Source: Desulfoscipio gibsoniae DSM 7213
GTDB taxonomy: Bacteria > Bacillota > Desulfotomaculia > Desulfotomaculales > Desulfallaceae
Reading direction: 5' to 3'
Length of the DNA: 64,000 nt
Assembly: GCF_000233715.2 (NCBI RefSeq)
Contig: NC_021184.1
Location: 310,001-374,000, forward strand
Part shown: piece by piece, positions 11,792 to 56,671 of the stretch
Layout of the letters: each line of letters opens with the position of its first letter
Numbering within the stretch: the first letter of the stretch is position 1
Notes under the pieces: generated by a model
Seen by the model: the letters and a program-made list of their open reading frames with translations, nothing else
The model's database searches: none
What the model was told of the DNA's origin: nothing
Translations under genes and position numbers: made by a program

Positions 11792-12211
11792 ATGTTTGGA
11801 GACACGGTAGTAAACATCGATCCCCGGGAAGTATCCTCTCTGGTTTTAGCGTATATCGGCGATGCGGTATACGAGCTGGCGGTGCGGGAATACCTGGTGA
11901 ATCAGGGTATCACCAACGTTAACAAGCTGCACAGGGAGGCGGTGCAGCACGTGCGGGCATCCACCCAGGCCAAGGTTTTCCTTGCCCTGGACGGACACCT
12001 CAACAAAACCGAGGAGGCGGTAGCCCGGCGCGGGCGCAACGCCAAGCCCGGTCATGCGCCTAGGGGAGATAGTATAATTGAATACCGGCATAGCACCGGT
12101 TTCGAAAGCCTGGTGGGTTATTTATATTTAAAGCGCGATTGGTCCAGGTTGGAGGAAATATTAAACCTGGCCCGGGAAGTTATCAAACAAGAAATCGGTG
12201 CCGGGTGTTGA
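11792..12211 (+). CDS. mrnC: Mini-ribonuclease 3
   Basis: A 139-residue RNase III catalytic domain without a dsRNA-binding domain; in Bacillus it matures the ends of 23S rRNA. The signature LAYIGDAVYELAVREYL and the downstream acidic residues (YKRDWSRLEEI region) match the family. It starts 2 nt after cysS. The last codons and the TGA stop lie inside a 25-nt arm of the palindromic repeat that also flanks cwlD, so its C-terminus (EIGAGC) is partly repeat-derived. Confidence 0.92.
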   Translation: MFGDTVVNIDPREVSSLVLAYIGDAVYELAVREYLVNQGITNVNKLHREAVQHVRASTQAKVFLALDGHLNKTEEAVARRGRNAKPGHAPRGDSIIEYRHSTGFESLVGYLYLKRDWSRLEEILNLAREVIKQEIGAGC

Positions 12212-12236
12212 AAGGTTGAAAGTTGGATTCCTGGCA
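12197..12236 (+). repeat. Degenerate single-arm copy of the cwlD-flanking palindrome
   Basis: 12197-12221 matches 24 of 25 bases of the left arm of the palindrome at 52707; a cctggca remnant of the right arm follows at 12230-12236. The hairpin cannot form. It overlaps the mrnC stop codon. Confidence 0.7.
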
Positions 12237-52187: not shown

Positions 52188-52580
52188 GTGGCTCTAGTTC
52201 AGTTTTACGGTACCGGGCGCAGAAAAGATGCGGTAGCCAGAGTTTTTCTTCGTCCCGGTGAAGGCAAGATGACAGTAAACGATAAAAGCCTGGAAGAATA
52301 TTTTGGCAGGAAAACATTGCAAATTGTTGCCCGCCAGCCATTGGAATTAACCGGTGCGGGGAGTCGTTTTGACGTTATAGCCAAGGTTTTGGGCGGCGGT
52401 GTCAGCGGCCAGGCCGGTGCAGTTAAAATGGGCATTGCCCGGGCATTGATTGAGGCAGACCCTAATTTAAGGCCCGTGCTTAAAAAAGCGGGATTTTTGA
52501 CCCGTGATCCACGCATGAAAGAAAGGCGTAAATACGGCCTGAAAAAAGCCCGCCGGGCTCCGCAATACTCCAAGCGCTAG
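52188..52580 (+). CDS. rpsI: 30S ribosomal protein S9
   Basis: 130 residues; [22 protein letters not shown] and the P-site-contacting C-terminal tail [14 protein letters not shown] 52188 with GGAAGGAGG at 7 nt. Confidence 0.97.
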
Positions 52581-52619
52581 TACGTTAGTACTATCTTAAA
52601 GCTAATAATCAAAAACCGG

Positions 52620-52649
52620 GACCACCATATTGCAGGTGGTCTTTTTTTT
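52620..52649 (+). terminator. Terminator after rpsI
   Basis: gaccacc (52620-52626) pairs with ggtggtc (52635-52641), followed by seven or more T. Confidence 0.9.
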
Positions 52650-52706
52650 GTTCAAAAAGCCTTCATGGTTACTGCAACAAGCAACAAACTTTCGCTGCTT
52701 TTGATA

Positions 52707-52764
52707 GGTGCCAGGTGTTGAAAGGTTGAAATCTTTGATTTTCAACCTTTCAACACCTGGCACC
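52707..52764. repeat. Palindromic repeat, copy 1 (left of cwlD)
   Basis: 25-bp perfect inverted arms (52707-52731 and 52740-52764), 8-nt centre; arms begin GGTGCCAGGTGTTGAAAGG. It is the reverse complement, almost base for base, of the copy at 53802-53860, including a few flanking bases (tgata / tatca). The rest of the 52650-52896 gap holds no gene or clear promoter. Confidence 0.9.
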
Positions 52765-52896
52765 AAAGCTTATTAATCAATTTGCTGGATTTTCCGTTAC
52801 CGCTGCTGCTTTTCCCTCATATCCGGTTTATCTCTTGCATATTTTAAAACGAGGGTTTGGTAAAAAAGCCCCGTCAAGTGCGGAAGGGGTGGGTAA

Positions 52897-53703
52897 ATGC
52901 TGCGGGTATTCAGGATAAAGCTTCGTTTTGTATTGCTGGCCATACTTATCATGACGGCAGGTTTTTTTATTGCTCGTTCAATTGGGGATAACTTGGAGAA
53001 CCGCCGGGTGGCTGCGTTATCCTGGTCGGTGGCCAACAAAGTCATCGTTGTTGACCCGGGACACGGTGGTATTGACCCCGGCTCGACGGGTGCGACCGGG
53101 GTTATAGAAAAAGACATAACCCTCGAGGTTTCGCGCAAGCTGAGCACTGTTTTGGGGCAGGGCGGTGCCATTGTATTAATGACCAGAGAATCCGATGTTG
53201 ATCTTAGTGATGCGGATGGTGGTCAGCTAATAACCCGTAAAAGACAGGATTTATCCAGGCGAGTGGCTCTGGCTAACGAACGCAATGCTGACGCTTTTAT
53301 TTGTGTACATGTCAATAGTTTTAAGTCCGGCCCCAAAGAACACGGGGCACAGACATTTTACCAGCCGGGTTCTCAAGAAGGTCAGAGATTAGCCAATGCT
53401 GTCCAGGGTGAATTGGTTCGGTTACTGAAGAACACCAATCGCAAAGCTAAGGCAGTGGATTATTATACCACCCGCAATGCTAAAATGCCTGCAGTAATAG
53501 TGGAAATCGGCTTTATCAGCAACCCCACAGAGGAAAAGCTGATGTGCGACGATGATTATCAGGCAAAGCTAGCCTATGCGATATATGCGGGTCTGGTTAA
53601 ATATTTTGCTGAGAACGCTACCCCCACCAGCGGTTCTGTGGATAAAGAGAAAGCGTTGGAAACTTTTATGCAAAACGAAGGTAAAGATTACGGAGCACCG
53701 TAG
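52897..53703 (+). CDS. cwlD: N-acetylmuramoyl-L-alanine amidase CwlD (spore cortex)
   Basis: 268 residues. An N-terminal signal-anchor (about 8-28) is followed by an Amidase_3 domain with zinc/catalytic motifs VVDPGHGGIDPG, a conserved Glu (GVIEKD), CVHVNSF and VIVEIGFISN. CwlD strips peptides from muramic acid so that muramic-delta-lactam can form in the spore cortex. The place beside rpsI matches Bacillus. ATG 52897 with GGAAGGGGTGGG upstream. The gene is bracketed by inverted copies of a palindromic repeat. Confidence 0.9.
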   Translation: MLRVFRIKLRFVLLAILIMTAGFFIARSIGDNLENRRVAALSWSVANKVIVVDPGHGGIDPGSTGATGVIEKDITLEVSRKLSTVLGQGGAIVLMTRESDVDLSDADGGQLITRKRQDLSRRVALANERNADAFICVHVNSFKSGPKEHGAQTFYQPGSQEGQRLANAVQGELVRLLKNTNRKAKAVDYYTTRNAKMPAVIVEIGFISNPTEEKLMCDDDYQAKLAYAIYAGLVKYFAENATPTSGSVDKEKALETFMQNEGKDYGAP

Positions 53704-53801
53704 GGGTCAGGCTTAAACTTTCTTAAACTTACGGTGGTAGGGAATAATCTTTAAACATACTTGACATACACTCTAAAAGCTTGTTCGAAAAGGTAGGCTT
53801 T

Positions 53802-53860
53802 GGTGCCAGGTGTTGAAAGGTTGAAAATCAAAGATTTTCAACCTTTCAACACCTGGCACC
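53802..53860. repeat. Palindromic repeat, copy 2 (right of cwlD)
   Basis: 28-bp perfect inverted arms (53802-53829 and 53833-53860) with a 3-nt centre. It lies between the convergent ends of cwlD and the P-type ATPase gene and, as RNA, would form a very stable hairpin for either transcript. The remaining 53704-53998 sequence holds no supportable gene. Confidence 0.9.
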
Positions 53861-53998
53861 TATCAAGGCACCGACCAGGCCGGTTTTGGCGTTTATTAAA
53901 GTTTGACCGGTCATACACATCACCAGTTGCATGATATGAAGTAGATTTTTGGCGATGTGGCGTTGCACGCTGAAACGTTGAAGTGCCGAACATCGTTA

Positions 53999-56671
53999 TT
54001 AAGCAGGGTCATATAAAAACTTAAACCGGTTCATGACTTGAATTATCAAAATAGAAGCTATAGTGGTTATTAATACAATCATTATATCGCTCATATTTAA
54101 AGGTACGGTTTGCAGTACGCGGTTCAACAGGGGCTGGTAGATGGCCAGTGCTTGCAAGGCCAACACAAGTACAATGGCTCCCCACATGTACGGGTTGCTG
54201 AACAATGAACGATCCAACTTGATTACCCCGCCATGGCGAACATTGAAAATGTGGAACAACTGTACCACTGCCAGTGTGGCAAAGGCCACGGTTCGCGCTT
54301 CAGTTAAATTACCGGTTGCGTTAAGGGTCAACAGGTAGCTTGCCAGAGTGCCCAGCGCCAGCACAATGCCCTGGATCAACAGGCGCAGTTTAAACCGGTT
54401 GGTCAAAATGGCCCGGGAGGGGTCGCGGGGCGGACGGTCCATAATACCTTTTTCGGCCGGTTCCCAGCCCAGGGACAGGGCGGGGAAAACATCAGTCACC
54501 AGGTTAAGCCATAGTATTTGTAATGCCACCAGGGGCAAAGGCACTCCCATCAGCAGTGTCACAAAAATGAGGAGTATTTCACTGAGGTTGCAGGAAAACA
54601 GATAGTGAATAAACTTGGTGATGTTATCGAAGATCACCCTGCCTTCCTTGACGGCCTTAATAATAGTGGCAAAATTGTCGTCCTGCAGCACCATGTCAGC
54701 CGCCTCTTTAGCCACCACGGTACCCTCCTGGCCCATGGCGATACCGATATCCGCTTCCTTTAAAGCAGGGGCGTCATTTACGCCATCGCCCGTCATGGCG
54801 ACAATGGCCCCTTGCTCTTGTAAAGCATCTACTATGTTTAACTTGTCTTTGGGGTTAACCCGGGCAAATATGCTGGCATGGGCCAGTTCGTCGGATAATT
54901 CCATTTTAGACATGGCGTGCAGGGAGGAACCGTGCACAATATTACCTTGCGCCAATCCCAGCCGGCTGCCAATGGCACTGGCAGTTTCCGGCTGGTCCCC
55001 GGTGATCATAATGGTGCGTATACCTGCCCGGGCGGCTTCCGCGATGGCCTGTTTAGCTTCCTCCCGGGGCGGGTCCATAATGCCCGCCAGGCCGATTAAT
55101 ATCAGGTCCCGGTAAGGCTCCTCCTGCACTGATTGTACATGGCGGTAAGCCACGGCCAGCACCCGTAAGCCTCTGTGGGCCAGCTGGTCATTGGCTTCTT
55201 CCACCTGCCGCCATATCTCCTGATCAAGGGGTACCGGAATCCCATCTTTAAGCATTGCAGAGCAGCTTTCCATGATTACTCCGGGAGCCCCTTTGGACAT
55301 GACCATTGTTTTACCGTCGGGCATTTGGTAATAAACAGCCATACGTTTTTCATCGGAGTTGAAAGGAATTTCCTTTAACTCCTTATATCCGGAGCGCCTG
55401 GCGTTTTCGGGGTTAAAGCCACCCTTCATAGCGGCCACCACCAGGGCGCCTTCCGTAGGGTCGCCTACCACATCCCACTGGCCTGTATCGTTTTTATTCA
55501 CGGAAGCGTTGCTGGCCAGGGCACCGGCCATAAGAAACAACTCCAAATCACCCTGCACCTGTTCCCGTTGTTCACCGGCCAGGAAATCTCCTTCAGGTTT
55601 ATAGCCTGTTCCGGTTACCTGGATAGCGCGCCCGCCCAGCCAAATATGCTCCAGGGTCATTTCATTTTCGGTTAGTGTACCTGTTTTATCGGTGCAAATT
55701 ACAGTGGTGGAGCCCAGCGTTTCCACCGCCGGCAAGCGCCGGATAATTGCGTTTTGCCTGGCCATGCGGGTCATGCCGATGGCCAGGGTAATAGTGGATA
55801 CAGCAGGCAGGCCTTCAGGCACAGCGGCGATGGCCAGGGCAATGGCCGTTTCCAAAACTTCAATCACCGGGCGTCCCATGGCAATGCCCACGACTGCCAT
55901 CAGCGCGGCAATGGCCAGACTGAGAAAGGCCAGTGTACGGCCTAAATCAGCCATTCGCTTTTCCAAGGGGGTTTGCCCGGCGCCGGTTTGTTCCAGTAAA
56001 GTGGATACGTGGCCGATTTCAGTATCTTTACCCGTAGCGGTGACCACGGCCCGTCCTATTCCCCGCACCACCATGGTGCCCATATAAACCATGTTTACAC
56101 GATCCCCAACCGGCAGGTTTTCTTTTTCCAGCACAGCTGTTTTCTTATCCACAGGCTGGGATTCGCCTGTTAAAGAGGCTTCAACTGTTGCTAAATTTTC
56201 GGCTTCTACCAGCCGGGCATCGGCAGTAACCTGATCTCCTTCCTCCAACACAAGAACATCGCCTGGTACCAGGTGCTCAGCGTTAATCTCCTGCAATTTG
56301 CTGTCACGAACTACCTTGGCTGTGGCCGTGACCATTTTTTTCAGTGCCTCCATGGCCTGTTCCGCCCTGTATTCGGTGATAAAACCAAATGTGGCATTTA
56401 GTACTATCACTACCATTATTGCCACAGCTTCAACATAATCCCCCAGCAAAAGGGAGATAGCGGTGGCACCCAGCAGTAACACCGTAATGATATTGCTAAA
56501 CTGACTGGCCAAAATAGCCCAGGGGGAGATGCCGGTTTTCTCTTCCAGGCGGTTTTCACCGTACTGGGCCAGGCGGCCTTGGACTTCTTCTCCGGTTAAC
56601 CCGTTTTGCAGGTTAGTATTCAGCTGGGCTGATATTTCATCCGTTTTTATGGTGTGGGGGTGTTTGAGCAA
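53999..56671 (-). CDS. Calcium-transporting P-type ATPase (P2A-like)
   Basis: 890 residues, about ten membrane helices. Actuator TGES (168-171), phosphorylation site DKTGTLT (D328), hinge MTGDGVNDAP, and the M4 motif PEGLPA (285-290) typical of Ca2+ pumps such as PacL/YloB. N-terminal cation_ATPase_N and C-terminal extra helices are present. It probably expels Ca2+ (Mn2+ or other divalent ions possible). TTG start at 56671 with AGGAGGG upstream. No partner genes; it converges with cwlD and diverges from the DedA gene. Confidence 0.9.
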   Translation of the reverse strand: MLKHPHTIKTDEISAQLNTNLQNGLTGEEVQGRLAQYGENRLEEKTGISPWAILASQFSNIITVLLLGATAISLLLGDYVEAVAIMVVIVLNATFGFITEYRAEQAMEALKKMVTATAKVVRDSKLQEINAEHLVPGDVLVLEEGDQVTADARLVEAENLATVEASLTGESQPVDKKTAVLEKENLPVGDRVNMVYMGTMVVRGIGRAVVTATGKDTEIGHVSTLLEQTGAGQTPLEKRMADLGRTLAFLSLAIAALMAVVGIAMGRPVIEVLETAIALAIAAVPEGLPAVSTITLAIGMTRMARQNAIIRRLPAVETLGSTTVICTDKTGTLTENEMTLEHIWLGGRAIQVTGTGYKPEGDFLAGEQREQVQGDLELFLMAGALASNASVNKNDTGQWDVVGDPTEGALVVAAMKGGFNPENARRSGYKELKEIPFNSDEKRMAVYYQMPDGKTMVMSKGAPGVIMESCSAMLKDGIPVPLDQEIWRQVEEANDQLAHRGLRVLAVAYRHVQSVQEEPYRDLILIGLAGIMDPPREEAKQAIAEAARAGIRTIMITGDQPETASAIGSRLGLAQGNIVHGSSLHAMSKMELSDELAHASIFARVNPKDKLNIVDALQEQGAIVAMTGDGVNDAPALKEADIGIAMGQEGTVVAKEAADMVLQDDNFATIIKAVKEGRVIFDNITKFIHYLFSCNLSEILLIFVTLLMGVPLPLVALQILWLNLVTDVFPALSLGWEPAEKGIMDRPPRDPSRAILTNRFKLRLLIQGIVLALGTLASYLLTLNATGNLTEARTVAFATLAVVQLFHIFNVRHGGVIKLDRSLFSNPYMWGAIVLVLALQALAIYQPLLNRVLQTVPLNMSDIMIVLITTIASILIIQVMNRFKFLYDPA

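Follow-up and report, generated by a model that had tools for sequence, protein, structure and literature searches.

Palindromes on either side of cwlD in Desulfoscipio gibsoniae as probable copies of a lineage-specific interspersed repeat

Palindrome-bearing MITEs of bacteria are short, non-autonomous and intergenic, have imperfect terminal inverted repeats shared with insertion sequences (IS), are lineage-specific and occur in copies with and without the inner part, features that the repeats reported here appear to share, the IS link being tentative. Heptameric STRR repeats of cyanobacteria are direct repeats with 7-nt periodicity that lie between genes and are patchily distributed. Similar 7-nt periodicity, intergenic position and patchy spread, together with TGA stops in the forward reading, characterize the TAACTGA repeats of Beggiatoaceae according to PMC4679880. 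The REPs and REPINs associated with RAYT genes and marked by GTAG, as well as the CGTC repeats, are like the present family dispersed intergenic palindromes that often lie behind coding regions, and for the CGTC repeats, too, no transposase gene was found alongside (PMC3733652, PMC2817692). In addition, PMC3733652 describes GGGGWSAS-type repeats for TIRYTs.

A window of 64,000 nucleotides (positions 310,001 to 374,000 of contig NC_021184.1) was analysed from the genome of Desulfoscipio gibsoniae DSM 7213, which consists of one contig of 4,855,529 bases and is referred to as G000. The first-pass annotation had reported two perfect mirror-image palindromes beside cwlD, with an inverted match running beyond their arms. 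Both observations were confirmed. The palindromes P1 and P2 (Table 1) match each other in inverted orientation over 31 nt at 100% (52701-52731 with 53836-53866) and over 44 nt at 98% (52729-52772 with 53794-53837). Because any two copies of one palindrome are mutual reverse complements, their real orientation is given only by the flanks, which have CTTT before and TATCAA after the palindrome and place P1 and P2 in opposite directions. Folded as single-stranded DNA, P1 and P2 reach -30.9 and -34.4 kcal/mol (z -12.8 and -12.5), values that 0 of 200 shuffles equalled, indicating that the hairpins are not due to chance. The protein encoded between them matches Amidase_3 in a profile scan (PF01520, E 4.9e-51), consistent with cwlD, and the genes ahead of it, recognised from their ORF translations, are presumably rplM and rpsI.

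Table 1 Features of the window discussed in the text, in window coordinates.
Feature	Position	Strand	Basis and remarks
Palindrome P1	52707-52764	- (from flanks)	Perfect 25-bp arms (52707-52731 and 52740-52764, 100% complementary), 8-nt loop
Palindrome P2	53802-53860	+	Perfect 28-bp arms (53802-53829 and 53833-53860, 100% complementary), 3-nt loop
cwlD (Amidase_3, 268 aa), between P1 and P2	52897-53703	+	ORF list, profile
Putative intrinsic terminator between rpsI and P1	52618-52643	+	Terminator scan; kept in aligned congeners
Block between P1 and cwlD, TCATATC-N14-CATATTTT in G000	52817-52845	+	Aligned in seven congeners
Left terminal repeat of the MITE-like element of P2, AAAGCTTGTTCGAAAAGGT, one mismatch to AGAGYYTGTTCGAAAAGKY	53776-53794	+	End-word search (G000:C1:363776-363794)
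Candidate right end, degenerate, of P1's MITE-like carrier; reads AAGGCTTTTTGAACAAA	52647-52663	-	MAFFT against by-eye consensus; weak
Single-armed copy	12197-12214	+	Arm search (G000:C1:322197); its TGA is the stop of the upstream ORF by a simple ORF rule

When the 18-nt arm word GGTGCCRGGTGTTGAAAG was searched against the whole genome with up to 2 mismatches, 86 forward and 82 reverse matches were found, and the reversed control gave 0, identifying a dispersed repeat with copies in both orientations. The core of this repeat is an arm headed by GGTGCC with a GTTGAAA-type tail, which occurs either singly or doubled into a near-perfect palindrome; by eye, the tails have a period of 7 and read GTTGAAA or GTTGCAA. 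At least 43 palindromes and at least 54 single arms were recovered and classified in G000, as a sample of fetched loci in which 40 of 118 candidates were scored and perfect-match single arms beyond 4.446 Mb are under-represented. The 54 single arms do not represent 54 independent events, because they include the arms of a long-loop pair (688684/688763), a decayed palindrome (418538), several arms at tandem sites and a pair of positions that share the same flanks (651072 and 677871). The latter two (L078 and L165) each lie ahead of an ORF that by eye is acyl-CoA dehydrogenase-like, and suggest a duplicated operon segment.

An arm match was present in 11 of 41 searched genomes, its own included, all from the same family and some with merely one weak match. 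Among 398 genomes of the phylum, 16 had a match, with more than two only in G000 (80 + 73) and in Desulfoscipio geothermicus (G010; 34 + 43). A 21-nt version of the arm gave 105 stretches in named genomes, a set that may lack records close to G000; the 80 that were analysed come from D. geothermicus, BRH_c8a, BL5_bin.2, an uncultured Peptococcaceae bin and Bacillota MAG.313. The commonest arm spelling is GTTGAAAGGTTGAA in G000 and GTTGAAAGTTGAAA or GTTGCAAGTTG.. in relatives, and such lineage-specific spellings point to amplification within lineages. Judged from these sequences, P1 and P2 would belong to a new lineage-specific palindromic repeat family, and no earlier description of a GGTGCC palindrome family was found in the open-licence PMC literature. 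A palindrome in G006 lies next to a 28-bp tandem array of the arm (L149:2783-2912). PMC5903667 also lists D. gibsoniae as one of the species that carry small invertible sites close to signalling genes.

The cwlD locus was then compared with that of relatives. A cwlD match with an E value of 1e-40 or better is present in 16 of 16 genomes, and the rpsI-cwlD gene order is maintained in six congeners. In the rpsI-cwlD gap, aligned for seven congeners, the P1 stretch occurs in G000 alone and is missing in G001-G006, yet these six genomes conserve the rpsI terminator and the block ahead of cwlD. The latter is similar in 7 congeners by alignment and, judged by the sigma-E consensus, may be a promoter of that type. 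P1 may thus be a gain in this lineage, or its absence a loss in six. At the place of P2, the nearest congener (G001) has merely a shorter GGTGCC palindrome, GGTGCCAGGTGTTTTAAATACCTGGCACC, so that the gap there is not simply empty, and by-eye inspection of the 330 nt 3' of cwlD in G002-G006 showed no GGTGCC palindrome; related repeats are therefore present in this gap in two species. Right at the cwlD stop codon (53703-53730), GGGGTCAGGCTTAAACTTTCTTAAACTT resembles a repeat behind a RAYT-like gene of the same genome (L012), and a similar copy lies 3' of cwlD in G001. The palindrome is accordingly neither unique to this locus nor found at the same orthologous site in all relatives. With the 86 + 82 arm matches and the absence of P1 from the gap in six congeners, the earlier suggestion of a mobile repeat is probably right.

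Extension of the flanks led to a longer repeat, named MITE-1, that is bounded by imperfect terminal inverted repeats; its ends read AGAG[CT][CT]TGTTCGAAAAG on one side and its imperfect inverse on the other, at an end-to-end distance of 123-227 bp among the copies paired in G000. A MITE-1 flank is present on at least one side of 28 of the 43 palindromes (15 both, 9 right only, 4 left only), compared with one side in 47 and both sides in 0 of 4000 random window positions; 15 of 43 have no recognisable MITE-1 flank. The right half was found in 16 elements (17 matches, two in one element), of which by eye 10 contain a palindrome, 1 contains a decayed one and 5 have none (4713635, 2613722, 2702672, 3059666 and 4177835). 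Matches to the end word outnumbered those to its reversed control in G000 (20 vs 1), G010 (33 vs 1) and G001 (19 vs 2); counts in the remaining genomes were near the control, which itself matched in 15 of 16 genomes. P2 retains the left MITE-1 end and has lost the right half, and P1 has at best a shrunken right part, the match being weak. P2 lies within a MITE-like remnant, and P1, in degenerate form, probably does likewise.

The 17-bp end AGAGTCTGTTCGAAAAG is exact in the MITE ends at 130620 and 2377061 of G000 and also starts an insertion sequence in D. geothermicus, where contigs C30, C47 and C53 end 311-313 nt inside it; four further contig ends of this genome lie 95-340 nt inside another stretch, which begins AGAGCCTGTTCGAAAAGCC. 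The shared end precedes the start of a transposase known from its 129-aa N-terminal part alone (L310), which matches DUF772 (E 2.1e-8), an IS1182 model (E 2e-9) and an IS5 model (E 5e-4), both IS scores falling well short of the cut-offs for full-length proteins (36.9 bits compared with 270 for IS1182). Decayed relatives of the transposase-bearing end are present in G009, G011 and G000; the searches recovered no intact copy of such an IS, and G000 has one end with a decayed interior (L419). In G011, part of a transposase with a weak match to IS701/IS4 models (L418:922-1830) lies near an IS1182-like end. Searches for the IS transposase gave one Alicyclobacillus record among plasmids (55.6% identity) and 5 pattern stretches among viral contigs, none of which was confirmed. 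The 18 end pairs compared, which include spurious ones, showed no consistent target-site duplication, and no transposase was seen by eye between neighbouring copies in the first 60 residues of the ORFs of 18 regions (G000, G001, G006, G010, G011 and G013).

Single arms often lie in a second repeat context, which ends in TAAGTAATTTTCGCTGTAGTATT. For 21 motif matches of this context, a listed arm or palindrome was found within 100 nt in 14, and in 19 of the 21 by eye. Because 15 of 43 palindromes lack the MITE-1 flank and single arms have this second context, MITE-1 alone is insufficient to account for the spread.

Identical 24-nt arms were found in 33 of 43 palindromes in G000, where permutation gave 10.5 (max 16), and in 48 of 69 in relatives, where it gave 7.2 (max 14); the other 10 of the 43 are imperfect. 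Most arm identity is attributable to the copying of whole units. Seven perfect arm types occur in G000, four of them single-copy, and three of these four have changes paired on both arms, which requires correction or selection. Among the arm mismatches of G000 and relatives, 15 are G-T and 10 are A-C, which gives no clear preference to selection for RNA pairing. In the MITE-1 orientation, the loop is TTT in 7 copies, AAA in 4, A in 3, TT in 3, AA in 1 and CAA in 1; with both TTT and AAA represented, the centre occurs both ways round.

In our assessment it is likely that P1 and P2 are independent copies of a lineage-specific interspersed repeat spread via a MITE-like carrier, and that their framing of cwlD is coincidental. 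This explanation builds on the multi-copy dispersal, the shared flanks, the difference at the P1 site, the arm identity, the elements with and without palindrome and the IS-like 17-bp end. An IS1182/IS5-like transposase would move the MITE-like element and so carry the palindrome into intergenic gaps. The arms may stay identical through copying of whole units, with hairpin-templated repair, or selection for the hairpin, fixing single changes.

An alternative, which we regard as unlikely, is that the repeats are functional RNA elements at gene ends, serving in 3' protection, attenuation or as a protein-binding heptad array, with their spread being secondary. The arms covary, and the palindromes lie nearer to stop codons than random non-ORF positions do, both in G000 (median 60 vs 104.5 nt, p = 6e-4, for 36 of 43 copies) and in relatives (median 23 vs 106 nt, p = 1e-9, for 61 of 69). 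ORFs were called simply as the longest reading frames of 80 or 100 aa, with no annotation to guide them. Copies with no stop in reach were left out (7 of 43 palindromes and 1 of 54 single arms in G000, 8 of 69 and 10 of 55 in relatives), and 8 of 69 palindromes and 18 of 55 single arms of relatives lay inside a called ORF. Within 60 nt of a stop, the recovered single arms of G000 are all in sense orientation (39 of 39, 0 antisense), as a role in RNA would favour, but those of relatives are 21 sense and 10 antisense. Against such a role also stand the lack of any Rfam match in window positions 52300-54200 and 10 loci, the differences between congeners at the cwlD locus, and the position of P1 between the rpsI terminator and the block ahead of cwlD, a poor spot for a hairpin of the cwlD or rpsI mRNA. 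As for the proposal that the palindromes are reused terminators, the intrinsic-terminator scan of 52400-54100 returned 4 sites, P1 and P2 not among them; the palindromes have no T-tract and rpsI has its own terminator (Table 1), so a terminator role is not supported.

Somewhat more doubtful still is a scheme in which mobility or copying resides in the GGTGCC arm alone, as a unit of ~29-38 nt that is placed in sense orientation immediately behind stops with its head toward the gene; tail-to-tail pairs of such units would become palindromes whose perfection is maintained by copying templated on the hairpin. It is suggested by the 39 of 39 sense arms of G000. Relative to the nearest stop, 47 of the 53 single arms of G000 with a stop in reach are in sense orientation, and in relatives 24 of 55 single arms have the form GGTGCCRGGT-11mer-spacer-11mer, the 11mer being mostly GTTGCAAGTTG. 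The 21 sense and 10 antisense arms of relatives count against this scheme, and some of the antisense arms there abut apparent ribosome-binding sites. An anti-SD-like word is present in the head flanks of 12 of 55 single arms in relatives and 3 of 54 in G000, vs 6% at random. If true, the scheme would describe a repeat that targets gene ends, possibly with an RNA-linked insertion mechanism or a 3'-end function, its TGA being able to act as a stop.

The first-pass annotation had likened the arms to REP-type sequences, and REP/REPIN repeats mobilised in trans by a transposase of RAYT type (IS200-like, tyrosine) would be palindromic, intergenic and of high copy number, as is the family described here. 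The genome indeed has 15 PF01797 matches, of which 7 are longer and RAYT-like (L009-L015), and 10 of 43 palindromes have GTAG 5 nt before the stem, within GTAGGCTTT. However, when the flanks of the RAYT-like genes were searched to ~1.5 kb on each side for the words GGTGCC, GGCACC and TTGAAAG, and within 500 bp for inverted repeats, the palindrome was found beside 0 of 7, only stray single GGTGCC or GGCACC words being present. Six of the seven are instead flanked, on at least one side, by repeats of GGGGACG or GGGGTCAG type, matching the GGGGWSAS type noted above, and L011 has neither. GTAG directly abuts the stem in 0 of 43 copies, and CGTC lies within 12 nt of the palindrome in 2 of 43. The eight short IS200-type matches (L001-L008) were examined with the words GGTGYCAGG and CCTGRCACC as sole queries. 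Membership in the REP/RAYT system is thus not supported, and we consider mobilization of this kind improbable.

The proposal that P1 and P2 are the ends of a composite mobile element that carries cwlD between two inverted copies has in its favour the oppositely oriented flanks around a single gene, but is hardly credible, since six congeners also have cwlD behind rpsI without copies of P1 or P2, the one palindrome-palindrome gap of at most 1.2 kb is unremarkable (0.44 expected, P = 0.36, from the 43 recovered palindromes alone), and no transposase ORF was recognised by eye inside, where two reading frames reach 80 aa: cwlD, the only one scanned with profiles, and an overlapping antisense ORF. 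Because P1 and P2 are two among dozens of dispersed copies, their framing of cwlD looks like chance, and we infer that it is a coincidence with no cwlD-specific function.

In summary, the interspersed repeat with a MITE-like carrier would explain a striking feature flanking cwlD without invoking cwlD, and presents a single module in two different repeat contexts. If the sense placement at stop codons holds elsewhere, the route by which short repeats reach gene ends becomes a testable question. Compared with palindrome-bearing MITEs, no target-site duplication could be fixed here, and, unlike in those elements, the inner palindrome also occurs outside the element and as a single arm in the second context. 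Unlike REPs and REPINs (PMC3733652, PMC2817692), the palindrome is not placed beside the RAYT-like genes of its genome and does not have GTAG abutting its stem, and its stems are long and perfect (25-30 bp), which sets it apart from the CGTC repeats as well. The known palindromic repeats of bacteria would therewith gain a lineage-specific family without a linked RAYT, which also differs from STRR and from the TAACTGA repeats (PMC4679880) in its fixed GGTGCC head, its few units and its long-armed palindromic form.
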